Origin: a virus
DNA: 39,073 nt
IMG/VR virus record: IMGVR_UViG_3300025274_000022
Coordinates: 1-39,073 of that record
Strand: one strand, 5' to 3'
The number at the start of each line of letters is the position of its first letter. The first letter of the stretch is position 1. The notes under the pieces are model-generated. The model did no database searches, was not told where the DNA came from, and was given only the letters and a program-made list of their open reading frames with translations. Position numbers and translations under genes: made by a program. Below, piece by piece: positions 216 to 34,138 of the stretch.

Positions 216-227
216 AATTATTGACAT

Positions 228-256: not shown

Positions 257-259
257 GCT

Positions 260-430: not shown

Positions 431-460
431 CTTCTTTCCTTTTGTTGGCATTGAAAGGAA

Positions 461-489: not shown

Positions 490-496
490 GGATAAT

Positions 497-1385: not shown

Positions 1386-1432
1386 TAGAATATTATCATA
1401 ATAACTAAATATAAAGTAATAAAGATAAACAT

Positions 1433-1456: not shown

Positions 1457-1472
1457 AAAATTAACCATCTTT

Positions 1473-2605: not shown

Positions 2606-2619
2606 TTATCATAAAACTC

Positions 2620-2721
2620 CTAAGTTGCTAAAAAATAAATGGCAACAATCGCTACCGCTATAGCGATAGATATTTTTGGATTAGCTTTTGCTAATGTCCA
2701 AACTTGTTTCACTTTTTCCAT
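2620..2721 (-). CDS. 33-aa membrane peptide
   Basis: MEKVKQVWTLAKANPKISIA is followed by a hydrophobic span (IAVAIVAIYFLAT) ending at the C-terminus. GGAGG with a 5-nt spacer precedes the ATG, a near-ideal ribosome site that strongly supports translation. It is a single-pass peptide with the charged N-terminus presumably cytosolic. It lies just after polA. Role unknown. Confidence 0.65.
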   Translation of the reverse strand: MEKVKQVWTLAKANPKISIAIAVAIVAIYFLAT

Positions 2722-2730
2722 AGTTTCCTC

Positions 2731-4590: not shown

Positions 4591-4844
4591 TTGGTTGTTA
4601 AGGTATATCCTGGAGGTAAGGGTTTAACGTTGGGTTTATCACCGTAATCTCTGTCAATAATCATATCAATATAATGTTTTGCTTTTTCTAGATCTTTAAC
4701 TTCTCCTTTAGATGCATGTCTGCAAATATATTTAATAGCATTTCCTTCTGCAAAGAGCAATTTGTTCTCATTGATAAATTCACTCGGTTGGATTTTCATA
4801 TCCTTATAATGAGTTCCGCCAATTTGTTTTTTATACACGCTCAT
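4587..4844 (-). CDS. DUF3310 family protein
   Basis: An 85-aa protein with the typical DUF3310 opening: GGTHYKDMKIQPSEFI, then EGNAIKYICRHASKG and a helix with DLEKAKHYIDMII. The length fits the family, which is widespread in phages and often beside nucleotide or replication genes. Biochemical role is not established; the helical core with conserved His/Tyr/Arg has been likened to nucleotide-handling domains. It is coupled by ATGA overlaps to the helicase before it and to polA after it, which points to a replication or nucleotide-pool job. Confidence 0.9.
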   Translation of the reverse strand: MSVYKKQIGGTHYKDMKIQPSEFINENKLLFAEGNAIKYICRHASKGEVKDLEKAKHYIDMIIDRDYGDKPNVKPLPPGYTLTTK

Positions 4845-6331: not shown

Positions 6332-6528
6332 TTTATTTTCCTAAAAAAATTTCGCCAAATAGCTGATCTTATAATAGAAACAACGGTAAAAATTAAAGCA
6401 ATCCCTATGCTGTCCCATATAGTTGGATAAAGTCCAAAGAAAGGAAAGATATAAAGTTGTATTAAAATAGCTAAAATAAACCCACTTCCTACATCTATAA
6501 AACTTTCTATAAAACATCTTTTAAACAT
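6328..6528 (-). CDS. Small membrane protein, DUF7220-like
   Basis: A 66-aa protein with two hydrophobic spans (GFILAILIQLYIFPFFGLY and IGIALIFTVVSIIRSAIW) joined by a short loop, ending in basic residues RNFFRKIK. The pattern ES..DVGSGF..A...Q..IFPFFG......IGIALIFTVVSIIRS closely follows the small phage membrane family named DUF7220. Its role is unknown. It sits between primase and helicase with stop/start overlaps on both sides, so it may tether replication to the membrane; that is inference. Confidence 0.75.
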   Translation of the reverse strand: MFKRCFIESFIDVGSGFILAILIQLYIFPFFGLYPTIWDSIGIALIFTVVSIIRSAIWRNFFRKIK

Positions 6529-8042
6529 TAAAAAGAATCCTTTGGTTTAAGTTCCTTAGCTTTATAGTCTTCGGGTGGTTTTTCGAATGAGTTTACGATG
6601 GTGACCGTTGGTCTATTTTTTCCTATTGTTATTCGATCCGTAGTGCAACCACATTCTTCCTTGAGCATTTGGCTTGTTTCTTGAAACTTAACGTCCCATC
6701 GTCTTCGTTGAAGGAAGCCGTAGTAAAAAGAATCAAATAAGAAATAATGTTTTCCCTCGTTCGTGTAGACACTTCCTTTTTTAATATCTTCTTTTTCTAC
6801 GGTCGAAGATCCACGATTAGTACAAAATTCTTCAAGGTGATTTGTCAGTTGATCTTTTTTAGTAGTTCCTGTTGGAGGAGTAATAATTTCGCGTGTCTTA
6901 AGTAATTGATTCACAAGGATTTTCCAGTCTTTGAGTTTCATGCTTGGCGGGTATAATCCAATTCCTGCTATGCAGGCTTCTTCAAATAAGGACTGTTGTT
7001 TTAAATATTTAGCACTTGGAAGTTTAAGACGTTTACCATCCACGTTTAAATAATAATAAGGTTCTTCCAACTGAATTTCTTGAAGATCGTTTAAATCGGG
7101 AAACATAGCTTGACCTCCGATTCCATAAGTTCTTGTTTTACATAATTCTTTATCACAATGATTGCACATTGGAATGTCATTACATTTCCAGCCCCAATCC
7201 TGTTTTTCATGTTGGTGTTTAATGATATCTATTTCTTTTTGTTCCAAGTCGCCAATAATATATTTAGCATGAAACCATGAAATTTTTTCTTTCCAATTAT
7301 TTGGCCATTTCTTTTTTGCGTAAATAGCGAAATGAAACAGAGCATTATTTCGACCTGGTTCGGATATTCCTTCCAAAGATAAGGTTTCAATACACGGTGG
7401 TCCATCCTTAAATTCTGATTCGGCTCTTTTAATTTGTATGTCTACAACATCCTCAGGTTTGACACTGTAACATTCATATAAACCATAAAACTCTTCGAGA
7501 TTAGCTGCGGTGCCGTCAATTTTAAATGCGTAACGAGTTGTTTTGTTTCCTTGAAAATAAGGTAAATTTAAAAAGTTTCCAGTGTCTTCTTCTGATTTTA
7601 ATTCAATTTGTTTAGGAAAGACTTCCGCATTTCCAAATCCTAAAATAGCACGGATTTGATTAAGTTTGTCTCTGACTGTTTTGGCATCAATATAGTCTTT
7701 GATAAATAAAAAAATATGGGCTCCCCCACTTTTGGAACGGCATACGACTAAAGGAAGTTCAAGGGTGTGAATTTTACTAAGTAATTTTTTATGGTCAAAC
7801 CCAGCATAACTATCAACATCTATGCATCCCCATTTACAATTATCTTCTTCATTAATAGGGATAATGCCTAGAGTGGGTTCTATACCATTTAAATGATTTT
7901 CAAAATGTTGGCGGGTGACAATTTCTCTTTTAACAAAAGATTTTGTTTTTAGTTTTGCTCCATTTTTGGGAACTGAATTAATATAAGTGCAGCCGTGTGC
8001 TCTTTTTAATCCTTCGAATATATTTATAAATTTATCTACCAT
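6528..8042 (-). CDS. Archaeo-eukaryotic-type primase (TOTE-like)
   Basis: A 504-aa primase. The catalytic pair is in GCIDVDS (D75, D77), and the partner motif is SKSGGAH (H109), as in archaeo-eukaryotic (AEP/PrimPol) primases. GNFLNLPY (155-162) and GRNNALFHFA (about 230-239) are further family marks. A likely zinc site is formed by C287, C293, C296 and C301 (CNDIPMCNHCDKELC). The primase domain resembles the one in TOTE conflict systems. It would lay RNA or DNA primers for the PolA polymerase, replacing the DnaG/T7 gp4 type. No helicase motifs are present in it; the UvrD-like protein next door would supply unwinding. Confidence 0.85.
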   Translation of the reverse strand: MVDKFINIFEGLKRAHGCTYINSVPKNGAKLKTKSFVKREIVTRQHFENHLNGIEPTLGIIPINEEDNCKWGCIDVDSYAGFDHKKLLSKIHTLELPLVVCRSKSGGAHIFLFIKDYIDAKTVRDKLNQIRAILGFGNAEVFPKQIELKSEEDTGNFLNLPYFQGNKTTRYAFKIDGTAANLEEFYGLYECYSVKPEDVVDIQIKRAESEFKDGPPCIETLSLEGISEPGRNNALFHFAIYAKKKWPNNWKEKISWFHAKYIIGDLEQKEIDIIKHQHEKQDWGWKCNDIPMCNHCDKELCKTRTYGIGGQAMFPDLNDLQEIQLEEPYYYLNVDGKRLKLPSAKYLKQQSLFEEACIAGIGLYPPSMKLKDWKILVNQLLKTREIITPPTGTTKKDQLTNHLEEFCTNRGSSTVEKEDIKKGSVYTNEGKHYFLFDSFYYGFLQRRRWDVKFQETSQMLKEECGCTTDRITIGKNRPTVTIVNSFEKPPEDYKAKELKPKDSF

Positions 8043-8120: not shown

Positions 8121-8885
8121 TTAATACGGAACGTCTGTATTAGTTTCCGAAGGCGAATGTTTAATTTGCACTTGCCCTTTGCTCAATCTTTCAGCAAAGT
8201 TCTTTGCAACGTCGTAAGCACCTTTGTCTTTGATGGTATCTAATTTAGATACATCCCAACCATACCATGTTCCTTTGTCGTTAGACTGTTGAACAGTTTT
8301 AAGTCTATAAATATGACTGTATGTTGGAGGTGTAAATAAACCATTCTTGCCCTTCATTTTGGTACTCATCATCATTGTATTCCATTTTTTGCTAATCTTT
8401 AATTGAGTAGCCTTCATAGAAATCAATGCTGTAGAAGGGGTTGAACCCGAGAGTAAAACCACAAAATGGTTTGCTGTATTTTCAAGATAGTTTCCGTTAG
8501 GTAATCTATCCTTATTCATTTTGTCTCGAGTGGCATCTTTAATGATTCCACTGTTAACTTCATGAATTGCTACAGGAGCACCCATGCTTGTTCCTCTATC
8601 CTGCCATTCAACATATTGTCTTTTATAAAAGACGGGTAATACATTGATCTCAGTATAGAGTTCGGTTGTGACAGTATTATATATTTTGCCTGGTTCTGCA
8701 CCAGCAGTATATTTGCTGTCCTTCTTATTTACTTCGGGAGATAATTGTCCCAAAACTTTCAGAAAAGGTAACGCTAGATCTTCTTGCGTAATGTTCTGAG
8801 AGCCCGCATTTGCATCGGCTTCAAAAATATTTGTAGCTAATGCACCTGCTTTATCGCGTTTCACGATGTTTGCTTCTTGGTTCAT
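8121..8885 (-). CDS. Conserved phage replication-region protein (ssDNA-binding candidate)
   Basis: A 254-aa soluble protein with a disordered start, then a conserved core: EDLALPFLKVLGQLSPEV, GAEPGKIYNTVT, VLPVFYKRQYVEW. The C-terminus is polar and mildly acidic (SETNTDVPY). Proteins with this core are frequent in phage replication operons and are usually left as hypothetical. Its place beside primase, the hairpins that could raise its expression, and the beta-rich core would suit an ssDNA-binding protein, otherwise missing here. That is inference, not a family match. Structure prediction showing an OB fold would support it. Confidence 0.6.
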   Translation of the reverse strand: MNQEANIVKRDKAGALATNIFEADANAGSQNITQEDLALPFLKVLGQLSPEVNKKDSKYTAGAEPGKIYNTVTTELYTEINVLPVFYKRQYVEWQDRGTSMGAPVAIHEVNSGIIKDATRDKMNKDRLPNGNYLENTANHFVVLLSGSTPSTALISMKATQLKISKKWNTMMMSTKMKGKNGLFTPPTYSHIYRLKTVQQSNDKGTWYGWDVSKLDTIKDKGAYDVAKNFAERLSKGQVQIKHSPSETNTDVPY

Positions 8886-8887
8886 GG

Positions 8888-9448
8888 TTATTGTTTCCTT
8901 GTTATTTTGGTTCGGTTTCCTACGAACACGTTAAAAATATCCGTTGGCATTTCTTTTCCTGCCTCAACACGCTCACGGACGAGAGCCTTCAGGGTCATAG
9001 GCTCAACCTTCAACTTTTGTGTTGGTTGAAACCCTTGACCCTTCGCAAGTTCAGCATATTCTGCTGCCTTGTTATCTTCGTTACGCCCAAAGGAAACGGA
9101 GATTTCGTTCTTTATGATATCCCCTAGGCCGTTGATACGAAGCCAGTTAAATGCTTTCTCTCTGTTTGGAACAGTGATCGTAGCACTATAAAACGGTTTA
9201 ACATCTACAGAAGATCCATCCGCTAATTTAAGTGATGATAATCCCATTTCACTTAACATAGTTGGAATGACTTCTGCTGAGACGATTTCAAGTTCTCTTT
9301 TACTTATTTTGAGAGCTTCTTCCTGAAGTTTAACTTGATCTTCCATTGCTCTCAATTTTTTTACTTCTTCGGCTAAAGACTTAATATTAGAAGTTTTATC
9401 GATAACTTCCGTTTGATCTTTCTCCATTTGTTCTACAAGTTTATTCAT
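8888..9448 (-). CDS. Hypothetical protein with N-terminal coiled coil
   Basis: A 186-aa protein. Residues about 5-55 form a heptad-rich coiled coil (LAEEVKKLRAMEDQVKLQEE). A compact domain follows with a beta-hairpin (SLKLADGSSVDVKPFYSATI) and a charged C-terminal half (LKVEPMTLKALVRERVEAG). It lies directly before the ssDNA-binding candidate with a 2-nt gap, an order I recall from other phage replication operons, so the two may act together. No catalytic motif is visible. Function unknown. Confidence 0.75.
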   Translation of the reverse strand: MNKLVEQMEKDQTEVIDKTSNIKSLAEEVKKLRAMEDQVKLQEEALKISKRELEIVSAEVIPTMLSEMGLSSLKLADGSSVDVKPFYSATITVPNREKAFNWLRINGLGDIIKNEISVSFGRNEDNKAAEYAELAKGQGFQPTQKLKVEPMTLKALVRERVEAGKEMPTDIFNVFVGNRTKITRKQ

Positions 9449-9725
9449 ATTTTTTTATTTCCTCCTGTATTAGTTCTATTTCTTTTTTACATTTCTTGTA
9501 TGATTGGTATATTAAACCTTTTTTTATGAATGTCAAGCATAATATAGGAAAATTTAATAAATTTGTTAAAAAGTAAGTAATAGGGGCCTCTTTTCCCAAA
9601 GCCTGCGTCACTTGGTCGCTGATGGCTATTTGACGTTCGGTTTCTAAAAAATCCTTTTCCCAGCTTTGAGCCTTTTCCAGTCTTCCTTTTAATTTATAAT
9701 AATGCCAATCTTTATAATTCGTCAT
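9441..9725 (-). CDS. Small membrane-associated coiled-coil protein
   Basis: A 94-aa protein. The N-terminal half is charged and helical (RLEKAQSWEKDFLETERQIA). One hydrophobic segment follows (ITYFLTNLLNFPILCLTFI), then a Lys/Glu-rich helix (CKKEIELIQEEIKKYE). The start overlaps the upstream gene by 14 nt and lacks a clear ribosome site. A consensus-like promoter lies inside this gene. No recognised family. Confidence 0.6.
   Translation of the reverse strand: MTNYKDWHYYKLKGRLEKAQSWEKDFLETERQIAISDQVTQALGKEAPITYFLTNLLNFPILCLTFIKKGLIYQSYKKCKKEIELIQEEIKKYE
9509..9536 (-). promoter_or_regulatory. Possible internal sigma70-type promoter
   Basis: TTGACA (9536-9531), a 16-nt spacer and TAATAT (9514-9509) on the minus strand lie within the 94-aa gene, about 60 nt before the 186-aa gene. 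It would boost the coiled-coil protein and ssDNA-binding candidate. AT-rich coding can create such matches, though the full -35 consensus is uncommon in this window. Confidence 0.4.
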
Positions 9726-9897
9726 GTTTTTTAGTTCCCCAATCTATTGTTCTTTGAAAATTTCTAGCCTGTATATCTAGTTTTACACCAAATGGTCTCC
9801 AAGAATTTTTCATAAGATTTAATTCTAACAATAAAGTTGACCATTGTTTAGAACTAATATTAGGGGTTGTAATAATAATTTTATTCTTTTCCTTCAT
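9712..9897 (-). CDS. Small hypothetical protein, 61 aa
   Basis: Starts MKEKNKIIITTPNISSKQWS and contains NSWRPFGVKLDIQARNFQRT. It is a basic, soluble protein. AAAGGAG lies 6 nt before the ATG, which supports the start. It overlaps the preceding gene by 17 nt and the following one by 14 nt. No family is recognised. Confidence 0.65.
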   Translation of the reverse strand: MKEKNKIIITTPNISSKQWSTLLLELNLMKNSWRPFGVKLDIQARNFQRTIDWGTKKHDEL

Positions 9898-10282
9898 TTA
9901 ATTCTCCTTTTTCATAAATGTTGATTGAAATCGGATAATATCTACGTTCTTGTTTATCCCATTTTAATAGTTTAAATTTCCCGTTTGTATTTTCACTGGC
10001 AATGACTCCTGCTATTAGAATAAGTGCAGGATCTCCTGTGAGTAAAAGAAAGTCTTCTTTGGTAAAATTTTTTAAAAGTTTTCTAAGTTTGAATATCATA
10101 GGTCCAGGTGAGAAAATGATTTGGGAAAGTTCCGGTAATAAGAATTTAAATTCCCCATATTGAGATGCCCCTAAAATATTGATTTTAGGTCTACCAATAC
10201 GAGTACCTGCGATTTCTTGAATGACATAAACTGTAGGTTTATATCCCTCTTTCATAGTTTTATAATCTATACTTTCTGGCAT
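9881..10282 (-). CDS. Hypothetical first protein of the replication operon
   Basis: A 133-aa protein beginning MPESIDYKTMKEGYKPTVYV, with a mixed alpha/beta pattern and hydrophobic strands (TVYVIQEIAGTRIG, FLLLTGDPALILIAGVIASE). A longer reading starts at 10294, but that ATG overlaps the TATAAT box of promoter P3 and lies upstream of the expected transcription start, so I use the ATG at 10282. This leaves a very short leader without a Shine-Dalgarno. Its first position in the operon suggests early, strong transcription. No known domain. Confidence 0.7.
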   Translation of the reverse strand: MPESIDYKTMKEGYKPTVYVIQEIAGTRIGRPKINILGASQYGEFKFLLPELSQIIFSPGPMIFKLRKLLKNFTKEDFLLLTGDPALILIAGVIASENTNGKFKLLKWDKQERRYYPISINIYEKGELNEGKE

Positions 10283-10283
10283 A

Positions 10284-10312
10284 TTGACAAACATTATAAA
10301 CTATGATAGACT
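10284..10312 (+). promoter_or_regulatory. Plus-strand promoter for the helicase/HNH operon
   Basis: TTGACA (10284-10289), a 17-nt spacer and TAGACT (10307-10312) lie 20 nt before the helicase ATG, giving a leader of about 13 nt. The element overlaps promoter P3 almost completely on the opposite strand. Its -10 is weaker (4 of 6), so P3 would be expected to win under equal conditions. Confidence 0.55.
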
Positions 10313-22756: not shown

Positions 22757-24333
22757 AGTGTTGCTAGGCCTCCTTTTCTGAATGGACTTCTGTCCCATCC
22801 TGAATCACTTCGACTATATCCTGCTCCTGCTGTAGCACTACCTTCATGTCCCCCTGTGAAAGTTATTCCTCCACTTGGACTTTTTTTATATCCATAGTCT
22901 TTTAAGAGTTGATTTACATTTCCAACAGGTTTTCCTGCTTGTGCTCTGTTTAATATATTGATTCGTCTTTGCCCTAATCGTCTTGCGTCTCTTGCAGGTC
23001 CACTATAATATCCTCCGAGTGCATTCATTCTATTCAATTGAGCTGGGGTATAAGTTCGACCTCCTCCTAAGTTTACTGCTGCTGTAGCTGGTTTATAAAA
23101 TCTATTTCTTAATCTATTAATAAAGCTTTGTTGAGTAGGTCTTTTAATGGCATAGGATAATGCTTTTTCATCATCGTCGGTGTCGTCATATTTGAATGGT
23201 CGTTTATTATCTGTTGAATAGCTAAAGTCTTTCATTACGTTAGGATTAGAAGCTGTTAAGTGTCGTTTATCTGCGTCCGCTAACCATGCTTCATCGCTTA
23301 AACGATTAGGATACGTTCTCATTTGTCCCATCATAGTATCTTCATGAGGATTGACGCCGAAGCCAAGTGCTTTTTTACTTTCGCTAGTTAGGCCTGACCA
23401 ACCAATTTTTTCATGGCCGTAGGGGGTATAACTTAAATCTGCTGCAATTAAGCCAGAATCTCTTAAAAACTTTTCAGCTTCTCCAGGATTATATTTTGCT
23501 CCTGTAAAGCTGTCAGATACTTCTAGTGCTTTGTTAAAAGCTTCTTTTCTTTCAGGAGACCGTGGAGGAAGATTTTGATATGTTGCTTGCAAGTCCGCTA
23601 AATTTGTTCTCCAATCTGTTGTTCCTCCATATATAAGATCATGCATACGATTCCATTGCTCTTCTCCTTCGTACTCTCCTGGGAGACCTGGAATTTTATC
23701 TTGGAGAAATTTAGGTAATCTAACACTCCCTAACAGTGCAGCTCGCTTACCTCCTTCTTTTCCTACTCCTGGTACATTTATTAATTCATCACGAGGTTTA
23801 TATGTCATACCCAAGTGACTCATTTCATGACCAAAAGTCTGTCCAAATTGAAGTTTTTCTTCCTCAGTAGCGGCACCTGATTTAATTTTATTAAGCATAT
23901 CATTTTTAAAACCTGCGGAAGTCTTTGTTCCCATTAAACCCGCCCCACCATAAGTAACTGATGGATCGTCTGCGAAACTTCCAAAAAAATTACCAGCTGG
24001 AATAGACCAGTTTTGAAGAACTTGAGAACCTAGGCTATAAGGATCCCACGCTTCAAGACCTCGATTAAAGATGGGACTATCTTCATAAGTAAGATTATTT
24101 TGTTTTGCTATATCTTGATACCGATTCAATATATTCTGTTTGTATGCATTTGGATCGTTTATATCACTACCTAGAATATTCAGTGGATATATACTTCCAT
24201 TCGCAAAAGGAATTCTTGTTATACCTCCTGTATCTTTCTTCACCCGACCACCATATTTATCACTCCAGTCACGAGCAATCTCTGGCTCGTTGGCCCATAG
24301 GTATCGTCTTTGTTTTTCTGATTTAAAAGGCAT
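22744..24333 (-). CDS. Virion protein with HExxH metallopeptidase motif
   Basis: A 529-aa protein. It opens PFKSEKQRRYLWANEPEIAR, a motif I recall from marine phage structural proteins, and includes GGRVKKDTGG near 28. Residues 162-175 read QFGQTFGHEMSHLG: H169-E170-x-x-H173 is the zincin signature. A later EEQWNRMHDLIYGG could supply a third zinc ligand (Glu or His). The C-terminus is Gly/Arg-rich (FRKGGLATLW). If active, it could mature virion proteins, open the cell wall on entry, or degrade a host protein after ejection. The motif alone is not proof; position next to the gp10-like tail gene suggests a virion-borne protease. Confidence 0.65.
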   Translation of the reverse strand: MPFKSEKQRRYLWANEPEIARDWSDKYGGRVKKDTGGITRIPFANGSIYPLNILGSDINDPNAYKQNILNRYQDIAKQNNLTYEDSPIFNRGLEAWDPYSLGSQVLQNWSIPAGNFFGSFADDPSVTYGGAGLMGTKTSAGFKNDMLNKIKSGAATEEEKLQFGQTFGHEMSHLGMTYKPRDELINVPGVGKEGGKRAALLGSVRLPKFLQDKIPGLPGEYEGEEQWNRMHDLIYGGTTDWRTNLADLQATYQNLPPRSPERKEAFNKALEVSDSFTGAKYNPGEAEKFLRDSGLIAADLSYTPYGHEKIGWSGLTSESKKALGFGVNPHEDTMMGQMRTYPNRLSDEAWLADADKRHLTASNPNVMKDFSYSTDNKRPFKYDDTDDDEKALSYAIKRPTQQSFINRLRNRFYKPATAAVNLGGGRTYTPAQLNRMNALGGYYSGPARDARRLGQRRINILNRAQAGKPVGNVNQLLKDYGYKKSPSGGITFTGGHEGSATAGAGYSRSDSGWDRSPFRKGGLATLWQR

Positions 24334-26495
24334 TATCTTCTTCCGCTCGCTTGTACGTCCAGCCTGAAGGTTCCAATCTTCCAGTCCTGGGAAACTCCCG
24401 TATTCTCAACTTTAAGGGCTACGGATCGTGCTCGAGCTCTGGTATCTACTTTCGTGGTTGAAGAACTAATGGTAAACGGTCCAAGAGACGAACCTGTTTG
24501 TGATTCATTGGGATAATTTCTTAAATTTAAAGTGACCTGAGTGTTTCCCGTTTGCGTTAGGAAATCGGGAATGAACCGTTTAATGCTCATTAGAAACTCA
24601 CCGTCGCCTCTGAAGGTGACACCTTGTCGTTCATCCTGGGTAATATCATAATCACCCGATTCAATATTAGCAGCAATAGCGGACGTTACCCCTCGTTTGA
24701 CTTGATCGTTTCCTGTTTCCTGCTCGTAAAAAGTTGTAATGCCATCCGTGTTCCCTACGACATCGTAAGAAGTATCGGTATCAGCATCATAATGCGTTGC
24801 ATAAGGCTTGCCGAAGACAGCCGAATCGGACCAGGTCGTTCGGTTTAAACTTCCTGTGGTCCAGATAGGACGTTGCGGGGAGGAATCAATATAGTTATAT
24901 GTAACCATTCGGTCAATGACATTTGAGCCATTAGTACAATAAAACCAGATGACTTCTCCAAAAAGATTATTCAAACCGGCATTAATAAGTTGGTTGGACG
25001 TAGTATTAATATCATCGTAAACATAGTCTTCCACCAGACAGATCATAGATTCCAGTTTACCCGTGTACCTGAAGAAACCATTTTCCGACATCCAGTAAGC
25101 CGAACCATCGACTTCCAAAGCAGCGTTCATACCGATAAGTCCGCAATTCGTTCCTACCTGTTCGAAAGCAAACGTAAAAGGTTGACCCACAAATCTCATG
25201 ATAAAGAGTGCGGTATCGGTCCAGATATAAATTGCATTACGACCTCTTAAACTTCCCATGATTTTTGATCCATCGGCGAGTCTTTGTGTACCCGCGGTGT
25301 TGATTGCCGTTGGAGCATAGGTATTCAGATCTTCCTGATCGGACCATCGAATATACATATCATCCTGGGTTGATGATGTTCCAATCGTTGTCTCTGTACC
25401 TAAAAAGACAATGTGTCTATCGGGTGCTGAAATAAGCATATCACGTGAAGCCGTGGGGGCTCCTGAAAGAATAGTAGCACGTATCGCAGTGGCGTTTGTT
25501 GTTGCTGAATCCCATTCAAAACATTCAGCGTTATAAATTAAAGCAATCAGTTTAGTTCCGTAATTATCCAAGGACCAAAGTCCAGGTTCAAAGACTTTAT
25601 CTCCTGAAGCCGCTTGACCCCATCCTACATAGTCGGTTGCATTACTCACTGTCGCTCCATCTGCATGAATGGCGACACTCGTGCCTTGGGTAGCTCGTGT
25701 AACGCCTGTTAAAGTATTGGTGCTAATTCCTGTATAACTAATAAGTTCAGTACCTACTAAAATATAAGAGGTTCCAGACGTTGGAAAAGCCGAGGCATCC
25801 GTTAATACCACGGTCGTATCGCTAGCATCCGCGGTCAAAGCTCCATTTAAGGTAGTCGTAGCTTCACCGGCCACTTCACCACTCCATTGGCCAATACCCC
25901 AGCCGTAAGCCCCGAGTTGTTGTGCGGGTCCTACGGGATAATAATGTTGAACTCGAATACCCCCCGATAAAGTGGCACCCGATCCTGTTTCAGTTGAAGA
26001 CATCGTGATGGTAAGTTGAGTAGAACTATCGATACTGGTTACCATAAATTTGATGTCATTAAAGTCGGCCGCCACATAATTGGAGTTCGTAATGGTCGTA
26101 AAACTGTCGAGATAGATAATATCACCAGCACTAATATTATGAGAACTACCAAAAGTTATTTTAACTGCAGCCGATCCATTGGTTGTGGTAAACGTATTAG
26201 TTAAGGTGCTGGTAGTTTTAATAGGATGAATGTCGTAGAAAATACCCCCTGAATAAACATAGAGAATACGATTAGTGCCAAGGGCTGCGTACTTGGTTCC
26301 TGCATCATCAATAAAATGGTGTTGAGCACGGGTAACTCCCGTTAAAGAACTCTCTCCCAGTTCTGACCAACCCCCTATTTTTTCAGGTGTTTCATAACGA
26401 AAACGTACATAATCGCCCCCAATCCATTGCCCTTCAGCAGTGGTGGCGGTTATTTGTTTATTGAATCCAGGTAAAAAATTTATCTTTTGTAGCAT
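24333..26495 (-). CDS. Tail protein, P22 gp10-like DNA stabilisation family
   Basis: A 720-aa protein. The start (FLPGFNKQITATTAEGQWIG, then DYVRFRYETPEKIGGW) matches the packaged-DNA stabilisation/tail hub family of P22 gp10, which is 472 aa. The extra length comes partly from two inserted beta modules: one at about 100-178 (GSAAVKITFGSSHNISAGD ... SIDSSTQLTITMSS) and one at about 215-287 (TTVVLTDASAFPTSGT ... TLTGVTRATQGT). The rest is a WD-like beta-rich body. It closes the portal channel and joins the tail hub. Its stop overlaps the next start. Confidence 0.85.
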   Translation of the reverse strand: MLQKINFLPGFNKQITATTAEGQWIGGDYVRFRYETPEKIGGWSELGESSLTGVTRAQHHFIDDAGTKYAALGTNRILYVYSGGIFYDIHPIKTTSTLTNTFTTTNGSAAVKITFGSSHNISAGDIIYLDSFTTITNSNYVAADFNDIKFMVTSIDSSTQLTITMSSTETGSGATLSGGIRVQHYYPVGPAQQLGAYGWGIGQWSGEVAGEATTTLNGALTADASDTTVVLTDASAFPTSGTSYILVGTELISYTGISTNTLTGVTRATQGTSVAIHADGATVSNATDYVGWGQAASGDKVFEPGLWSLDNYGTKLIALIYNAECFEWDSATTNATAIRATILSGAPTASRDMLISAPDRHIVFLGTETTIGTSSTQDDMYIRWSDQEDLNTYAPTAINTAGTQRLADGSKIMGSLRGRNAIYIWTDTALFIMRFVGQPFTFAFEQVGTNCGLIGMNAALEVDGSAYWMSENGFFRYTGKLESMICLVEDYVYDDINTTSNQLINAGLNNLFGEVIWFYCTNGSNVIDRMVTYNYIDSSPQRPIWTTGSLNRTTWSDSAVFGKPYATHYDADTDTSYDVVGNTDGITTFYEQETGNDQVKRGVTSAIAANIESGDYDITQDERQGVTFRGDGEFLMSIKRFIPDFLTQTGNTQVTLNLRNYPNESQTGSSLGPFTISSSTTKVDTRARARSVALKVENTGVSQDWKIGTFRLDVQASGRR

Positions 26496-26544: not shown

Positions 26545-27189
26545 CTACTTAGGAATACCCAGCATTGGGCGTTTATCAAAAAGGTTTGTTTTAGCAAAGG
26601 GTCCATTTGCATGATTATAATGCAGAAAGACTTGAGAACAAACCGTTCCTTGGAAAGGTTCTCGCCAATGCTCTAGTTCGCAACCAGAATAAATCAGCAT
26701 GTCTCCTACTTTTAAATCGACTCGCACTCCTTTAGGAGCTCCGGGTTTAATGGTTTGTTTATATTCATCGATAACAAAGTTAGCTCCAGTAGGATCTAAA
26801 AAGATAGGCCATTCATCTCCCCCTAAATGGAGAGTGGTAGAAATTTCACAACTCGGTCGATCCTTATGTCGTCTTAAAATATTTCCTTTTTCATAGAGGC
26901 GTGTGTAAGTATAAGTAGGAACTAATTCCATTCCTGTTTTCTCTTTCATGACAGGAATCATATACATAAGTAAAGTCTCCATGACCCAGTCTGCATATTT
27001 GGTATAGCAACCTGGAACCTGTGTATCATCACGTCTTCCAATAAAAGGATTAAGAGGATTCACTTTATTATTTTTCATCATAAAATCTACAGCGTCTCGT
27101 TGTAGCATCATATAATTAAAGATAAAGTTAGCGAGCTCTTTGGAAAGAGCTTGTCGAATCACTTGGTATTTTTTGGTTTTAAAACTCAC
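26545..27189 (-). CDS. 2OG-Fe(II) oxygenase 1 (HxD type)
   Basis: A 214-aa dioxygenase with Fe ligands H108-K-D110 (LRRHKDRPSCEIS) and distal H174 (CELEHWREPF). GDMLIYSG before the last His is typical of phage 2-oxoglutarate/Fe(II) oxygenases. IKPGAPKGVRVDLKVGD marks the double-stranded beta-helix edge. It is fifth and last in a five-gene oxygenase cassette, with a GTG start overlapping the preceding stop by 4 nt. It should couple oxidation of 2-oxoglutarate to hydroxylation of an unknown protein, nucleic acid or small-molecule substrate. A 50-nt gap follows before the gp10-like gene. Confidence 0.88.
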   Translation of the reverse strand: MSFKTKKYQVIRQALSKELANFIFNYMMLQRDAVDFMMKNNKVNPLNPFIGRRDDTQVPGCYTKYADWVMETLLMYMIPVMKEKTGMELVPTYTYTRLYEKGNILRRHKDRPSCEISTTLHLGGDEWPIFLDPTGANFVIDEYKQTIKPGAPKGVRVDLKVGDMLIYSGCELEHWREPFQGTVCSQVFLHYNHANGPFAKTNLFDKRPMLGIPK

Positions 27190-27803
27190 CCTACTTTTCC
27201 TTCTTCATTGACTTGAATAAAATTAAAAGAGACAGAAACCCTCCATCCTTTTTCTCCTTTTTCTTGGGATTCATTTATTTCTACACCATGATGGAGCCAT
27301 GCAGGAAACATAATCATCTGGCCTTCTATAGCAGGATAAACGACGACCCGCCATAAAGCTCTGGGTAAATCTTCTACTCTTCGAGGGAGTATAATATTAG
27401 GTCCAGGTCTCGGGTCTTCCACAAATAGACGTCCTGAATTTTTAGGAACTTTTATATAATACACACCGGACCATTGAGAATTAGGATGGATGTGTTGTTT
27501 ATTATAGGCGCCTGGGTAATTAATATTAGCCCACATATTGCCTAAACCTGGTTTAGGGGCCATTCCATAATCCTTATAAACTTCTTCTTGCATGGCAAAA
27601 AGTTCATCAAGCAAGGGTTGGTATTCTGCTTTATTATTCATATTAGTGGGACTATGCCAGCCCCCGCCTGCATTGGTTTTCGTTTCGCTTTTAGATTTTT
27701 TACTCCAGGCTTTAATATGTTTAAATAAATATGGATTTAATTTTTTAGAATCTTTCACCATCTTCATATAAATGGGAGTAGGAAACAGAATTTCTCGGTT
27801 CAT
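27186..27803 (-). CDS. 2OG-Fe(II) oxygenase 2 (TIGR02466-like)
   Basis: A 205-aa protein of the putative 2OG-Fe(II) oxygenase family TIGR02466. Candidate Fe ligands are H104-I-H106 and H172 (AWLHHGVE), with R188 (WRVSVSFN) for 2-oxoglutarate. The usual HxD is HxH here, as I recall for the family. SGVYYIKVP, EDPRPGPN and GWRVSVSFNFIQ are shared closely with oxygenase 5 at 29037, so the two are paralogs. It overlaps both neighbours by 4 nt. Substrate unknown. Confidence 0.88.
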   Translation of the reverse strand: MNREILFPTPIYMKMVKDSKKLNPYLFKHIKAWSKKSKSETKTNAGGGWHSPTNMNNKAEYQPLLDELFAMQEEVYKDYGMAPKPGLGNMWANINYPGAYNKQHIHPNSQWSGVYYIKVPKNSGRLFVEDPRPGPNIILPRRVEDLPRALWRVVVYPAIEGQMIMFPAWLHHGVEINESQEKGEKGWRVSVSFNFIQVNEEGKVG

Positions 27804-28384
27804 TTAAATGGAGGTCCTCCAAACCACATTACTAAAGACTGTCTAACCCCTTTTTTAACTTTTGCCACACGGTGACGAATCAGGCTATTAAAAAAAATGG
27901 CTTGACCTTGCATCAATTGAGGGGGTTTATTACCTTCACTCATAAATTCTAAATCCCCTCCTTCAAATTCATTTTGAGGAGATAGTAGAATCGTCATGGA
28001 TATTTTTCTAACGGGAGGTTCATAGTGACAGTTTACATCACCATCCATATGCCAGTCATAAAATCCTCCTTTTGGATATTCAGTAAATTGGGCAGGCTCA
28101 GTAAGAGTCATTCCTTCATAACCAAAATGATTACGGTTAGCCTGCTGCATACTTCCTTCAACAATTTTATACATATCCGGCATCACCTTAAACGGAATCC
28201 AGCTGATAGTGGTAATACGCATTTTAGTATCGTGCTTTCCACCGGCCTTATCTTTATGTCCTACTTTAGCTTTCTCGGCTTTTTGTTGATGACCAATATT
28301 TATAATATCCTGACATTGTGCAGGGGTAAAAATAGGCCCCACCGTATTAGCCATTAAAGATTTCCATTTAGGTTCAAAGATCAT
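27800..28384 (-). CDS. 2OG-Fe(II) oxygenase 3 (prolyl 4-hydroxylase-like)
   Basis: A 194-aa protein with the P4Hc/PKHD pattern: H112-M-D114 (YDWHMDGDV), H171 (LIRHRVAKV) and R181 (RQSLVMWFGG) for the 2-oxoglutarate carboxylate, plus FEGGDLEF and GQAIFFNS, both characteristic. Closest by look to PKHD-type hydroxylases (YbiX/PiuC-like), shorter than the 225-aa bacterial proteins. It is the most canonical of the five. Prolyl or other side-chain hydroxylation of a virion protein is plausible but untested. Confidence 0.92.
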   Translation of the reverse strand: MIFEPKWKSLMANTVGPIFTPAQCQDIINIGHQQKAEKAKVGHKDKAGGKHDTKMRITTISWIPFKVMPDMYKIVEGSMQQANRNHFGYEGMTLTEPAQFTEYPKGGFYDWHMDGDVNCHYEPPVRKISMTILLSPQNEFEGGDLEFMSEGNKPPQLMQGQAIFFNSLIRHRVAKVKKGVRQSLVMWFGGPPFK

Positions 28385-29031
28385 TGAGCTGTCCTTGTTT
28401 GTACTGAATTATATTCAACATCAACATTACACACGAGCGTTCTTCTTTTGGCTTTTTTATTAGTCATCGGATAAACCACATGTCTCACGTCATAAGGGAA
28501 AACATAAAAATCTCCAATTTTCATTTTAGGAGAGTAGTCTGAAGTTACAAATTGTCCGGCTGCATTACCTAGAATTTGAAGCTGTCCATTCAGAGGTTGA
28601 TCGGGTCTAATAATTTCCGGGCCCATATCTTTAGGAAGTTTAAGAATCATTACAGAAGATAAACCTGTATAAAGTTTACCTTGATGAATGTGTACAGGAT
28701 TATAATCTCCTACTTTCATTTCATTAACCCAGATTGAATTAATATCCATGCGATACTCACCAATCTTATTCCAATCTAAATAATGTTTAAAAATAGAATA
28801 GAACCATTTTAAAATATCATCAGGAATATAACTATGTTGATGCATTTTTTCCGTGTTAGGCCCCGAAAAGAATAAAGAGACTTCATCCGGAATCTTTCCA
28901 GAAAGTTGCTTGGTGGCATTAGGCAAATGTTTCTTTTGGTTTTCGTAGAGTTCGTTGAGTCCAACAAACACTTCAAGAGGTACCTGGTATTTTAAAACCG
29001 ATTGACCTAAAAATATAAAATCATATTGCAT
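28381..29031 (-). CDS. 2OG-Fe(II) oxygenase 4 (HxH type)
   Basis: A 216-aa protein beginning MQYDFIFLGQSVLKYQVPLE. Candidate ligands, counted from this start, are H114-I-H116 (NPVHIHQGKLY) and H184 (DVRHVVYPM), with R196/R197 for 2-oxoglutarate. GDFYVFPYDVRHVVYP is the typical distal strand. An in-frame TTG at 29046 would add five residues, but ATG 29031 is more likely; neither has a clear ribosome site. The N-terminal 100 residues form a helical cap that differs from the other four, suggesting another substrate. Confidence 0.83.
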   Translation of the reverse strand: MQYDFIFLGQSVLKYQVPLEVFVGLNELYENQKKHLPNATKQLSGKIPDEVSLFFSGPNTEKMHQHSYIPDDILKWFYSIFKHYLDWNKIGEYRMDINSIWVNEMKVGDYNPVHIHQGKLYTGLSSVMILKLPKDMGPEIIRPDQPLNGQLQILGNAAGQFVTSDYSPKMKIGDFYVFPYDVRHVVYPMTNKKAKRRTLVCNVDVEYNSVQTRTAQ

Positions 29032-29036
29032 TTTAT

Positions 29037-29708
29037 TTATACCCAATTTGCCTGTGTAAAATTAAAGGCAACAGATATTCTCCAACCTTTTTCTCCTTTT
29101 AATTTTGATTTATTAATTCCAGCACCATGAGCAACCCATGAAGGAAAGAAGATAGCCATTCCTTCTTTAGGGGGATAGGGTACCACTCTCCAAAGTTCTC
29201 GTGGAAGATTGTGTACAATTCTAGGTGCAATTAAATTAGGACCTGGTCGAGGATCTTCTACCCAAATACAACATTCGGGATCATCTACGGGAACTCTAAC
29301 ATAATAAACCCCCGACATTGTTGAATTAGCATGAGTATGGTGGGTATTAAATCCTCCTGGATAATTAATATTAGTCCATATGGTACTAAGTTCGACTTTA
29401 GGTTGATAACCCAGGTCTTTAAAAATGTGGTCGACCATAATATACAGCTGATTAATTAATGGTTGAAATGCGGGTCGCACATCGGTACTGCTACGCCAAG
29501 CATTAATATTGGAATAAATTAAGGGGGAGCTATGGTCATTTTTAATGTGAGTTTTTTCAATACCCTCTGGATCTTCTTTCTTCCATGCCTTAATATCTTT
29601 TAAAAGTTTCTTGTTTAATTCTTCTGTCTTTTGAAGTTCCTTTATATAAATAGGAGTGGGAAATAAAATCTCACGTTTAAGCCCTGGAAATTTAGTATCT
29701 TTCATCAT
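29037..29708 (-). CDS. 2OG-Fe(II) oxygenase 5 (TIGR02466-like, paralog of oxygenase 2)
   Basis: A 223-aa protein. Candidate ligands are H124-T-H126 (HHTHANSTMSGVYYV) and H194 (SWVAHGAGI), with R210 (GWRISVAFNF). EDPRPGPNLIAPR and LPRELWRVVPYP align almost residue for residue with oxygenase 2, so the pair arose by duplication and then diverged at the N-terminus. It is the first gene of the cassette, starting 17 nt after the coiled-coil gene. Its substrate is unknown. Confidence 0.88.
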   Translation of the reverse strand: MMKDTKFPGLKREILFPTPIYIKELQKTEELNKKLLKDIKAWKKEDPEGIEKTHIKNDHSSPLIYSNINAWRSSTDVRPAFQPLINQLYIMVDHIFKDLGYQPKVELSTIWTNINYPGGFNTHHTHANSTMSGVYYVRVPVDDPECCIWVEDPRPGPNLIAPRIVHNLPRELWRVVPYPPKEGMAIFFPSWVAHGAGINKSKLKGEKGWRISVAFNFTQANWV

Positions 29709-29725: not shown

Positions 29726-30409
29726 TTAATAAGTTTTTTGTTTCTTAGAAATACGTTTTCGATTGGCACCATCATACTTTAGTTCTCCTGATTTTCTTAC
29801 CCGTTTTAACGTTTCCAATTGTCCTAGAACATTGAAAATTTCAGGCTGTGAAGAACCTGCAGTCAAGGTTGACTTCCTCTGTTCCAGTTGATGCATGTAC
29901 GATTCGGCTTGATGGGTATTAACGTCTCGATCATCAAACTTGCCATCGTGAAATTCTTTCTTGAGTTTAGACCAGCTTGAAATTTCTCTCATTCTAGCTT
30001 TGGCTACCAGTTCCATACTTGCTCGGCCATAAAGTTTTTCTTCCAATTCAATTTGTTTAAGTTCTTTTTCTAAAGAGTCCTTTTCTTTTTTAATATCTCT
30101 TTGGGTCTTTTTAATTTCAATATCATTCTTTCGGTACTCAAATGAAAGTTGCATCAGGTTTTCAAAATGAGTGTTTTGTTCCCGAACCGATTGCCAGTAT
30201 TTGGCAGCGTTCGTTCCATATTTATTATCGGAGAGAACCGAGAAACGCATTTCAGTTTCCGTTCTAAACATCTGTTTTTTGACCCAATTGTCCTGAAGTT
30301 CAGGAACCATCTTTTTAAATTCAGAGGCCTGAGATCTATCAAGTAAAACCATAAGGTGTTTGACTTCCTTATCAGCGTGCGGTTGAATATTTCTTCTGTC
30401 TTTATCCAT
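29726..30409 (-). CDS. Coiled-coil protein upstream of oxygenase cassette
   Basis: A 227-aa highly charged protein. Residues about 70-150 form a long coiled coil (KKTQRDIKKEKDSLEKELKQ, IELEEKLYGRASMELVAKAR). The ends are polar with Lys/Arg clusters (ANRKRISKKQKTY). AAGGAAAG lies just before the ATG. It may be a tail-fiber connector, scaffold or assembly factor. Its place directly ahead of five oxygenases makes it a candidate partner or substrate. No family recognised. Confidence 0.65.
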   Translation of the reverse strand: MDKDRRNIQPHADKEVKHLMVLLDRSQASEFKKMVPELQDNWVKKQMFRTETEMRFSVLSDNKYGTNAAKYWQSVREQNTHFENLMQLSFEYRKNDIEIKKTQRDIKKEKDSLEKELKQIELEEKLYGRASMELVAKARMREISSWSKLKKEFHDGKFDDRDVNTHQAESYMHQLEQRKSTLTAGSSQPEIFNVLGQLETLKRVRKSGELKYDGANRKRISKKQKTY

Positions 30410-30449: not shown

Positions 30450-31463
30450 TTATGAAGAAGTAAAAGTTTTAGTGGCATCGGGTGTAGAAAATTCTTCACA
30501 GACATTTGTTCCAGAACCAGCGCCGGACCTACTTGTCATTCCTCCTGCTACAAGAGCATTAATAGATGTTCCTCCACCTCCTGGCGCTTGACGAGCTGTT
30601 GAAAGATCCGCAATTTCAGTCCAAGTGGATCCGTCATAACTTTCCACAATGCCTGTAACAGCTTCACCTGCTCCTGAACCACCCATATATAGAGCAGCCG
30701 CTGGAGATGAAACAGCAGCCGCTGCTTGTGGTCTCCCAGTATTTAAATCTCCTACTTCTGTCCAAGAAGTTCCATCAAATGTTTCAACAAGAGCTACGGC
30801 AGGTTCACCCCCAATACACATAGCTGCTGTTTGAGTACCCCCTCCAAATCCACCAGCGTAGCGAGCTGTCTGAAGAGCATTTTCTTCTGTCCAAGACGTT
30901 CCATTCCATGATTCTGTTAGAGCTGTGCCTGTGGTTACACCACCGCCATAAGCCAAAGCTGCCGTTGAAGTACCTGCTCCTCCGAAATAAGTTCGAGCTG
31001 TATCAAGAGCAGTTATTTCTGTCCAAGTTGAACCATCATAAGTTTCAGCTGTCCCTACAATTCCGGGACTGGTAGCGTCTGTTCCACCAGCTACGAGCAT
31101 TGCAGTTTGAGTTCCGCTTGTTGATGGTGCCGCTCCTCTTCGAGCCGTATTCATATCAGTTACTTCTGTCCAAGTTGAACCATCATAAGTTTCTGTAGTA
31201 GCAACAGGAGTGTTCCAAGTACCTGGAGGAGGCATTTCACCCCCGCCTGCCATTATAAATGCTGTCTGTGTTCCTGCTCCCATCATAAGAGCTTTAAATT
31301 GATTTAGACTTCCTCCACTAGCCCACGCTGCTGTTCCTTGAGCTCCGTATCCTTTTAAAGTGTTGGCTGTTGTATTGTACCAAACTTGTCCTACGAGAGG
31401 ATTAGCTGGATCACCCGCAATAGTTTGTATTTCAACACCTTTAATTCCTATGTAAGTTGCCAT
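30450..31463 (-). CDS. Kelch-repeat tail fiber/adhesin 1
   Basis: A 337-aa protein. Residues 1-52 are an N-terminal module (GIKGVEIQTIAGDP, VGQVWYNTTANTLKGYG) shared with two other genes here. Six Kelch-like blades follow, each about 45-50 aa, with the cycle L-x-T-A-R, G-G-x-G-T-x-T-A-A, GG, E-T-Y-D-G-S-T-W-T-E. They should form a six-bladed beta-propeller. The end (ATKTFTSS) resembles the other copies. Such proteins are probably receptor-binding or virion-surface adhesins. The start overlaps the stop of the mini-paralog (TAATG). Ser/Thr/Gly-rich composition is like other fiber genes. Confidence 0.85.
   Translation of the reverse strand: MATYIGIKGVEIQTIAGDPANPLVGQVWYNTTANTLKGYGAQGTAAWASGGSLNQFKALMMGAGTQTAFIMAGGGEMPPPGTWNTPVATTETYDGSTWTEVTDMNTARRGAAPSTSGTQTAMLVAGGTDATSPGIVGTAETYDGSTWTEITALDTARTYFGGAGTSTAALAYGGGVTTGTALTESWNGTSWTEENALQTARYAGGFGGGTQTAAMCIGGEPAVALVETFDGTSWTEVGDLNTGRPQAAAAVSSPAAALYMGGSGAGEAVTGIVESYDGSTWTEIADLSTARQAPGGGGTSINALVAGGMTSRSGAGSGTNVCEEFSTPDATKTFTSS
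30759..30788. repeat. 30-bp identical repeat shared by the two Kelch genes (copy 1)
   Basis: The 30 bases at 30759-30788 in Kelch gene 1 are identical to 32261-32290 in Kelch gene 2. They encode the blade junction ETFDGTSWT in both. Similar but shorter identities recur at other blade junctions inside each gene. These are sites where blades could be swapped by homologous recombination. Confidence 0.85.
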
Positions 31464-31948: not shown

Positions 31949-32977
31949 TTAACTTACTGTCACGGTTTGTGTTGTATAGTTCGGACTATTAAATTCTTCT
32001 GTTCCAGCAGTATATATTGCTGGGGGCTGCAATTGACCTCCTACCCATAAACAAGCAGCGCTGGTGCCTGATGATTGCATATACCCTTGAAATTTAGTTA
32101 CTGCTAGATTACCTACTTCAGTCCAAGAACTTCCGTCCCAAACTTCTGTATTAGTTGTATATCCAGGAGGTCCATTATATCCTGCATATGCTATCGCCGC
32201 CGTACTACTTGCTCCTGAAGCGCCGCCAGATTCCCTAGCTGTGGTCATAGCAGTTCCTGTTGTCCAAGAAGTTCCATCAAATGTTTCAACCGTAGTCTGG
32301 ATGCTAGGGCCTCCTCCCCCACAGAACATAGCCGAAGTTTGAACTCCACACGAACCTGCATTGTGCCGAGCCGTATTTAGATCATTTACTTCTGTCCAAC
32401 TTGTACCATCAAATTTTTCTGTTGCAGCTATTTTAGAATCATCAGCTGCTTCTCCCCCAAAAGCTAAGCCTGCAGTGTTTGTGCCTGCACCACCAAATTT
32501 ACTTTTTGCTGTATTCATAGCATTAACTTCCGTCCAACTACTTCCATCATAATCTTCAGTAAGAGTCACAGCTTGAAGACCTGGAGGTCTTGCATCTCCT
32601 CCAAAAGCTAAAGTCGCAGTCGTAGTTCCACATGCTGCTAGAGTTCGTCTGGTAGTACCTAGTGTTGCAGGAGAAGTAGTCCAACTACTTCCATCATAAG
32701 TTTGTGTTACATTAGTATTAGAGAAGGGAGGTGGGCCCGATGCAGATCCATATCCTCCTACTACAATAGCTGCCGTTTGAGTTCCTGCAATACCCCCAAT
32801 ACCTCTAGCGGTACTTAGATCTCCCCCAGAAGCCCAGGCTCCACCGCCTTCAACTCCGAGTCTAAATTTTCCTGTACCAGAATTATACCAAAGTTTTCCT
32901 ACAGTTCCGGAACTTGCCGTGGGATCAGATGATAGACTCTGAACTGTAAAACCCTGTATACCTTTATATGTAGCCAT
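31949..32977 (-). CDS. Kelch-repeat tail fiber/adhesin 2
   Basis: A 342-aa paralog of Kelch 1. The N-terminal module (GIQGFTVQSLSSDP, GKLWYNSGTGKFRLG) precedes six Kelch-like blades (LSTARGIGGIAGTQTAAIVV, ..., TYDGSSWT) and the tail TTQTVTVS. Blade sequences differ from Kelch 1 mostly in loops, as expected for receptor-facing positions. It starts 3 nt after the fiber gene at 32981. With Kelch 1 it may offer two binding specificities on one virion. Confidence 0.85.
   Translation of the reverse strand: MATYKGIQGFTVQSLSSDPTASSGTVGKLWYNSGTGKFRLGVEGGGAWASGGDLSTARGIGGIAGTQTAAIVVGGYGSASGPPPFSNTNVTQTYDGSSWTTSPATLGTTRRTLAACGTTTATLAFGGDARPPGLQAVTLTEDYDGSSWTEVNAMNTAKSKFGGAGTNTAGLAFGGEAADDSKIAATEKFDGTSWTEVNDLNTARHNAGSCGVQTSAMFCGGGGPSIQTTVETFDGTSWTTGTAMTTARESGGASGASSTAAIAYAGYNGPPGYTTNTEVWDGSSWTEVGNLAVTKFQGYMQSSGTSAACLWVGGQLQPPAIYTAGTEEFNSPNYTTQTVTVS
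32261..32290. repeat. 30-bp identical repeat shared by the two Kelch genes (copy 2)
   Basis: Second copy of the element at 30759-30788, about 1.5 kb away and in the same orientation. Recombination between the copies would delete the mini-paralog, the 97-aa gene and parts of both Kelch genes, fusing them into one. Confidence 0.85.
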
Positions 32978-32980
32978 GGA

Positions 32981-34138
32981 TTATTTATCCTTTAATAGCC
33001 AGCCTTGAGTAGTGTCAGTAAAAACTAAAGTAAACGCAGCACGTTCAACGGCAACGGTTAAGTCAGCAGCTGTACCTTCAATTTTTTCCGAACCATCAGG
33101 GGCTACAGTTAAATTGTTTGTATCAAATGTTCCTGCATAATCAATAAAAGAACATTCATCTCCTATTGTGCCCGCAGGAAGTGTAGCTGTAAAAGCAGCT
33201 GAAGTCGTATCACAAAAATACCCTTCACCTGCAACCGCAGTAAAACCTGTTGTATCCACCGCTTGCCAAGAAGTTCCACCAGACATCGTTGTCCATGATA
33301 AAACTCCTGAAGCATTGGATGTTAAAGCATCGCCCGATGTTCCGGCATCTGCTAAAGGTAAAGTATAAGATATAGTTTCTGATAAATTGCCTGGTTTAAA
33401 TCCTGTGTAAAAAGATCCAAGATCTGTATCTTCATAAAGTCTAATTTCTCCACCTTGATCAGCATTTCCTTGAACAACAAAAGCTCCTGTTCCTTTAGGA
33501 AGGACTTCTAGTCCTATATTCGTAGAGCCTCCACTTAAGGTAATACGAGGGTCGTTGCCCGATGCAGCATTAGCTAAAGTAATTTCGTTAACTGCTGATC
33601 CTGTCGCCGTTAGTTTTATTAATTCATTTCCACCAGTATCTAAAATATCGGTTCCAATTTTTGGTGAAGTTAAAGTTTTGTTTGTTAAAGTTTGTGTTCC
33701 GGTAAGAGTTACATCTCCGAAACTTGCGCTAGCATCAACACAATTTGTTCCATCTGTATAAATAAGTTTGGCTCCTGTAATACCTGCAGCCCACTCGACT
33801 CCTGTACCTGAAACGGTTTTAAAAGTAACAGTATAAGTACTTCCACCTTCAGCATTATTAACGATCCACCAGTTTTCAATACTGTCTGGAACTGTTACAA
33901 TAGCATTTCCACTTGATAACGTTCCTGTTAATTTAATAACACGAGTAGCTAAGACAGATTCAGCACCATCACTTTTCGTTAAAGCGACTGTGCCTCCGTC
34001 GCTAAGAGCTTGTGCTACATAACCTCCTGCGATATTTTCCATCATATCCCAGTTAGTATTAGTTTTAGTTCCCCATGTACCAGCGTTTTCGCCAGTAGCC
34101 ATTTTTTGAATTCCTAAATTTGTATATGTTGATGGCAT
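32981..34138 (-). CDS. Tail fiber protein
   Basis: A 385-aa beta-rich protein. It opens PSTYTNLGIQKMATGENAGT, WGTKTNTNWDMMENIAGGYV, a virion-attachment domain I recall as common in marine phage fibers. The middle has LTGTQTLTNKTLTSPKIGTD, a trimeric-fiber shaft motif. The C-terminus is a jelly-roll-like domain (AFTATLPAGTIGDECSFIDY, LTVAPDGSEKIEG). It probably forms the trimeric fiber to which the Kelch proteins attach. No peptidase or lyase motif. Confidence 0.8.
   Translation of the reverse strand: MPSTYTNLGIQKMATGENAGTWGTKTNTNWDMMENIAGGYVAQALSDGGTVALTKSDGAESVLATRVIKLTGTLSSGNAIVTVPDSIENWWIVNNAEGGSTYTVTFKTVSGTGVEWAAGITGAKLIYTDGTNCVDASASFGDVTLTGTQTLTNKTLTSPKIGTDILDTGGNELIKLTATGSAVNEITLANAASGNDPRITLSGGSTNIGLEVLPKGTGAFVVQGNADQGGEIRLYEDTDLGSFYTGFKPGNLSETISYTLPLADAGTSGDALTSNASGVLSWTTMSGGTSWQAVDTTGFTAVAGEGYFCDTTSAAFTATLPAGTIGDECSFIDYAGTFDTNNLTVAPDGSEKIEGTAADLTVAVERAAFTLVFTDTTQGWLLKDK

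Follow-up and report, generated by a model that had tools for sequence, protein, structure and literature searches.

A conserved four-gene block of Fe(II) oxygenase-type genes in the tail module of a marine phage group, with a possible role in tail protein modification

Introduction

Few of the 'auxiliary' genes carried by marine phages are commoner than those for Fe(II)- and 2-oxoglutarate (2OG)-dependent oxygenases, which tend to be taken for metabolic genes. From phages of the HTVC023P type, eight non-orthologous 2OG-Fe(II) genes have been reported along with 'ferrochelatases' and were called nearby 'although not adjacent' (Wittmers et al., 2022; PMC9599517), 24 such oxygenase genes are present in the genome of phage S-SCSM1 (PMC9602691), variable host-recognition islands were seen in a 2014 survey to include Fe(II) oxygenase genes (PMC3909814), and seasonal viral groups, most of them related to pelagiphages, are enriched for oxygenases (PMC11561400). 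Here we consider an array of this kind in the linear virus record IMGVR_UViG_3300025274_000022 of IMG/VR (39,073 bases, analyzed whole and referred to below as the window), in which five consecutive oxygenase-type open reading frames (ORFs) occupy positions 26545-29708 of the minus strand, as a preliminary description of this DNA had placed them. A run of this kind already described and assigned in related phages was among the things that this description had set against its own reading; such runs are indeed on record, but a function assigned to them was found in no paper of the accessible literature, subscription literature lying outside the search. Three points appear worthwhile: a fixed four-gene core, a pattern of tail genes plus halogenases, and a probable mislabeling of one family as ferrochelatase.

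The conserved core

The cassette is read in the following order.

g5, 29037-29708, minus strand: extra PF13759 oxygenase, paralog of g2, rare
g4, 28381-29046, minus strand: divergent PF13759 oxygenase, HxH...H...RR type
g3, 27800-28384, minus strand: PF13640 prolyl-hydroxylase/PKHD-type oxygenase with complete HxD...H...R
g2, 27186-27803, minus strand: PF13759 2OG-Fe(II) oxygenase, HxH...H...R type
g1, 26545-27189, minus strand: predicted double-stranded beta helix (DSBH) oxygenase-fold protein, PHROG 2954, with HxD (H108, D110) and distal H174

Relatives were drawn from IMG/VR scans that each gave the nearest 80 loci, many of them overlapping, and the loci, de-duplicated by identical g1 protein, remain related to one another. 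In the survey of gene order proposed in the preliminary description, 118 distinct loci reach 2.6 kb or more beyond g1 on its upstream side, and 96 of them keep the order g4>g3>g2>g1, which persists where protein identity falls to about 50-60%. The conserved unit is g4, g3, g2, and g1 in fixed order, and g5, which lies outside it, is a rare extra. The core also has constant neighbors, with Kelch and coiled-coil genes ahead of the full core in 57 of the 69 loci that extend at least 5 kb upstream of g1. Among these long loci, the Kelch gene is present in 58 of 59 with g4 versus 2 of 10 without it (Fisher p=4.7e-8, a descriptive value, the loci being related), and the coiled-coil gene is likewise found in 58 of the 59 carrying g4. 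A search anchored on the downstream tail-hub gene agrees with the placement in the tail module, between coiled-coil and hub genes, that had been described for the window: 30 of 33 loci with at least 3.5 kb upstream hold two to five oxygenases within 6 kb upstream of the hub, this 6-kb count having replaced a strict adjacency count, as small ORFs interrupt the chain. Median ratios of nonsynonymous to synonymous substitution rates relative to the window are 0.068 for g1, 0.071 for g2, 0.093 for g3, and 0.104 for g4, comparable to those of the coiled-coil (0.097) and hub (0.094) genes. Judged from these sequence comparisons, the cassette is far beyond chance, with near-invariant metal ligands and strong purifying selection on each core gene, and the array appears real, conserved, and active-looking.

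The preliminary description had the genes joined by mostly 4-nt overlaps, and this is so at the g4/g3, g3/g2, and g2/g1 junctions (ATGA, ATGA, and GTGA). It is not so at g5/g4, where a 10-nt overlap (29037-29046) hinges on a TTG start of g4; most g4 relatives begin at an in-frame ATG, at 29031 in the window, which is probably the real start and would put 5 nt between the two genes. Searches with hidden Markov models recovered no sixth oxygenase in the window, no terminator was seen within the cassette, and promoter-like matches were not more numerous than in shuffled sequences.

The neighboring genes are as follows.

Tail hub/stabilization-type virion protein, 24333-26495, minus strand: phrog_3287 'virion structural protein', E=9e-101
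Coiled-coil gene, 29726-30409, minus strand: lysine-rich coiled-coil-like protein, weak phrog_1409 match
Kelch-repeat protein 1, 30450-31463, minus strand: Kelch_6, E=7.7e-4 (below the curated cut-off); phrog_27227; candidate substrate
Kelch-repeat protein 2, paralog of protein 1, 31949-32977, minus strand: phrog_27227, E=2.9e-79
Tail-fiber-connector-like protein (T4 gp9/10 N-terminal-like), 32981-34138, minus strand: PF07880, E=4.8e-4 (below cut-off); phrog_967, E=2e-7

The coiled-coil gene directly precedes the cassette and the hub gene follows it. Homologs of the hub are present in phages HTVC023P and HTVC027P; at the cut-offs used, no relatives in annotated phages were found for the coiled-coil protein or for the Kelch proteins, for which low-complexity filtering may hide matches. 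Upstream of the coiled-coil gene, three related loci (L283, L284, and L285) carry Kelch-type genes in tandem, three or four of them. Elsewhere in the window, three genes at 8121-10294 match the gp34-, gp33-, and gp32-like families of phage Pam3 (PF23977, PF23984, and PF23992).

The enzymes

All five products can be assigned to oxygenase families, as the preliminary description had it, four by Pfam matches and g1 by its predicted fold, with ligands near-invariant in 134-193 distinct members of each of the four core families, and Fe(II) oxygenase as the enzyme class of the cassette is well supported. The metal sites that it had noted, His-x-Asp/His plus a distal His, are seen as HxD...H in g1 and g3 and as HxH...H in g2, g4, and g5. 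The g3 protein matches PF13640 above the curated cut-off (E=3.1e-13) and, by profile, PiuC (9ghl, 6e-19) and prolyl 4-hydroxylases (P4Hs), and H112, D114, H171, R181, and S183 are present in 145 of 145 distinct members, so that it possesses both the HxD...H triad and the basic 2OG-binding residue of the Fe(II)/2OG oxygenase superfamily.

The PF13759 genes match their family above curated cut-offs (1.6e-23 for g2, 3.3e-9 for g4, and 2.8e-18 for g5), thus possessing the DSBH domain of the superfamily. By profile, g2 matches the solved structures 3BVC (3e-29) and 2RG4 (3e-27). For g4, a profile gave no meaningful match among PDB sequences and a structure search was required; its AlphaFold2 model (predicted local distance difference test, pLDDT, 89; predicted template modeling score, pTM, 0.87) has 2RG4 and 3BVC as best PDB fold matches, and the structure-prediction check proposed earlier thus returned oxygenase-type folds for g4 as for g1 (see below). 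Conservation is nearly complete: in g2, H104 and H106 are found in 151 of 151 distinct members, H172 in 150, and R188 in 149, and in g4, H119, H121, R201, and R202 in 134 of 134 and H189 in 133. The ligand pattern of g2, g4, and g5 is HxH...H and not the classical HxD/E, and their superfamily membership, as read from sequence, rests on PF13759 and not on these ligands. In a profile alignment, the second His of HxH sits where g3 has the Asp of HxD, and the motif likely represents a three-His iron site. The paralogy of g2 and g5, claimed earlier, is clear (53% identity). For g5, the scan of viral sequences gives only a pair of near-identical contigs and a single relative at 30%, and in a tree g5 groups with a copy from locus L022 (support 100/99) in another clade, away from the window's g2, its exact placement being uncertain as g5 is a long branch. 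Origin of g5 by a fresh tandem duplication of g2 is therefore unsupported.

The 'ferrochelatase' label

The g1 protein matches phrog_2954 (E=2.3e-51), a family labeled 'ferrochelatase' and taken as such by Wittmers et al. (2022; PMC9599517). A Pfam scan of g1 returned no family at E<=1, and its profile found no meaningful match among PDB sequences, so a structure search was required. With the AlphaFold2 model (pLDDT 94.4, pTM 0.89), Foldseek gave 626 PDB matches at E<=0.001, the top ones being the prolyl hydroxylase of Pseudomonas putida (4iw3/4j25), followed by hypoxia-inducible factor prolyl hydroxylases and PF13759 proteins. The 50 matches listed are all oxygenases or PF13759 proteins except two trypanosome RESC chains, and no ferrochelatase is among them. 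The TM-scores are moderate, about 0.5-0.6, and for this reason g1 is best modeled as a distant member of the oxygenase fold group. Its predicted DSBH fold goes with the HxD...H triad of the superfamily, H108 and D110 being present in 193 of 193 distinct members and H174 in 192. In the viral structure library, a cyanophage protein named ferrochelatase (E3SI68) shares the fold. With no Pfam family, oxygenase fold matches, and the HxD...H pattern, we reject g1 as a ferrochelatase, and the label of PHROG 2954 appears, on the model, to be an annotation error. Published heme/iron readings (PMC9599517, PMC11561400) depend on this label.

Halogenases, other array members, and host

Tryptophan halogenases (PF04820) are encoded inside the arrays of three relatives of the window (L228, L286, and L188) and beside cyanophage arrays. 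The positions, inside or beside arrays, are L228:2846-4393, L286:4377-5948, L225:4672-6219, and L188:7521-8933 (minus strand), and such halogenases are likewise found in Syn9, S-CREM1, and HTVC008M. Another recurrent member is PHROG 274, which carries the label 'DNA endonuclease V'; an alignment of 11 sequences has a conserved HxD, mostly with a distal His, and the family looks like another oxygenase family. Its members lie within arrays at L286:3258-3758, L286:7204-7752, L227:7862-8855, and L194:8683-9288. PHROG 7084 recurs in or beside arrays as well (L286:2528-3286, L188:5383-6129).

As to the host, locus L283 (CACGJO010000010.1, positions 1-7980) presents the order Kelch>coiled-coil>g4>g3>g2 on a contig of the Pelagibacteraceae single-cell genome AG-422-J20, likely representing a phage inside a SAR11 cell or attached to one. 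As the nearest isolates of the window also infect SAR11, the host of this phage group, judged from these relatives, is likely SAR11.

Possible functions

The reading that we favor, with a little more doubt than confidence, is that the block oxidatively modifies tail proteins of the phage itself while these are being assembled, the substrate being suggested by position. Four conserved Fe(II)-dependent DSBH enzymes and an extra copy would form a tail-module oxygenase island, whose genes would be translated together, presumably late in infection, and whose products would hydroxylate or otherwise oxidize side chains of assembling tail proteins, presumably with 2OG. In the accessible text on HTVC027P transcription, the oxygenases of that phage are given no time class. 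The likeliest substrates would be the upstream Kelch-repeat proteins, possibly also the coiled-coil or hub protein, and adsorption or stability might be affected. We favor this because in two phage groups that are unrelated to each other the arrays lie next to tail genes, because of their association with Kelch genes and halogenases, and because of the similarity to protein hydroxylases, the closest folds of known substrate being PHD2, P4H, and the P. putida P4H (solved in complex with EF-Tu). A role in modifying virion proteins, and not in metabolism, is suggested by the four-gene core, by its lasting association with Kelch, coiled-coil, and hub genes, and by the halogenases encoded in related arrays. 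The earlier proposal of action on a virion component thus stands as a reading of position in two unrelated groups.

Several observations weigh against this. Five of the 30 hub-anchored loci have some or all oxygenases on the opposite strand, and arrays and tail genes on opposite strands (L187, L188, in part L221, and HTVC027P) make both co-expression of the two and the stoichiometric coupling suggested in the preliminary description less persuasive. The number of Kelch genes varies from one to four among relatives while the oxygenase set is constant at four. The co-substrate of g1 is uncertain because the usual Arg/Lys about 10 residues past the distal His, which binds 2OG in the superfamily, is absent; position 184 is Cys in 178 of 193 members, R111, R176, Q186, and H190 are conserved instead, and binding of 2OG may be non-standard. 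Close Foldseek matches also include the small-molecule enzymes PolD, SnoK, and AsqJ, S-SCSM1 also has oxygenases scattered among replication genes, and the accessible parts of the S-CREM1 and S-SCSM1 virion proteome texts name no oxygenase and report no modification.

The same P. putida enzyme that is g1's best structural match raises the question of host substrates. Modification of EF-Tu, ribosomal, or cell-surface proteins could redirect the infected cell, and the Syn9 array does hold a protein of the JmjC_2 family (PF08007), a family that includes ribosomal oxygenases. We consider this unlikely, if credible, as neither the lasting association with Kelch, coiled-coil, and hub genes nor the placement in the tail modules of unrelated phages is explained by it. 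Alternatively, the array may be variable cargo at a recombination-prone site by host-recognition genes, its enzymes having different, unrelated functions, as composition and strand do vary in distant relatives (two to five genes, some reversed), and g5, rarely found, clusters with a copy from another phage instead of the window's g2. Against such free exchange speak the order g4>g3>g2>g1, so widely kept in divergent relatives, and the strong purifying selection on each gene, making this possibility likewise improbable.

A metabolic role, whether in drawing down 2OG, feeding succinate, or linking to iron/heme metabolism, has been proposed for cyanophages (PMC3037559) and pelagiphages (PMC9599517, PMC11561400), and host iron-uptake genes rise in HTVC027P infection (PMC12753301). 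Yet the heme argument depends on the 'ferrochelatase' label, contradicted by the fold and ligands of g1, and consuming 2OG needs no set of several divergent tail-module enzymes, so that this role appears decidedly improbable. Still further down in likelihood, and very improbable in our view, is AlkB- or TET-like modification or repair of DNA, put forward for cyanophages in work that PMC3037559 and PMC2984593 cite and offered, for DNA bases, as an alternative in the preliminary description. The genes are sited in the tail module and not with those for replication, a scan of window proteins turned up none for base modification, and a specific AlkB or TET sequence match is absent; the window thus gives this alternative no support.

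Modification of tail proteins may also be proposed more broadly, and more doubtfully: two or more unrelated groups of marine tailed phages, among them podoviruses of the HTVC023P type and Kyanoviridae, may carry dedicated islands for oxidative tailoring, oxygenase arrays to which a flavin-dependent halogenase may be added and whose products would act post-translationally on the phage's tail or receptor-binding proteins. If so, host recognition would hang on residues absent from the gene sequence.

Comparison with known systems

Among characterized enzymes, the PKHD-type hydroxylase PiuC and the prolyl 4-hydroxylases are matched by g3 by profile and in the complete HxD...H...R, but the phage genes, unlike these, are part of tail operons. 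The solved PF13759 proteins 2RG4 and 3BVC, bacterial proteins described only as uncharacterized, have the HxH motif in common with g2, g4, and g5.

Several consecutive oxygenase genes adjoining tail or baseplate genes are found in the window, in its relatives, and in isolates, with arrays beside baseplate or fiber genes in the unrelated Kyanoviridae (HTVC008M, Syn9, S-CREM1, and S-SCSM1). The nearest isolates, HTVC023P, HTVC033P, and HTVC027P, possess two to four oxygenases in the tail module (four near the hub homolog in HTVC023P and three in HTVC033P), and a g1-family gene adjoins an oxygenase, but they lack the four-gene core and the Kelch-coiled-coil neighbors. Longer runs are those of Synechococcus phage S-CREM1 (ORFs 72-80, nine genes) and of Syn9 (gp45-gp54, about ten genes, with matches from clear to weak), both made of 2OG/JmjC oxygenases, ending with a g1-family gene, and adjoining tail-fiber-region genes; they differ in including JmjC and DUF6445 types and in having a tryptophan halogenase nearby and, in S-CREM1, collagen-like genes. 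Five oxygenases in a row, taken as unusual in the preliminary description, are not unusual, as the S-CREM1 run and that of Pelagibacter phage HTVC008M (NC_020484) demonstrate. The latter is a T4-like myovirus, its array has another internal order and stands on the strand opposite the flanking structural genes, and Kelch-coiled-coil neighbors were not seen in it; like the window, it presents five consecutive oxygenase-family genes (gp68-gp72), next to baseplate/structural genes, and these include, as in the window, g1-, g3-, and PF13759-types.

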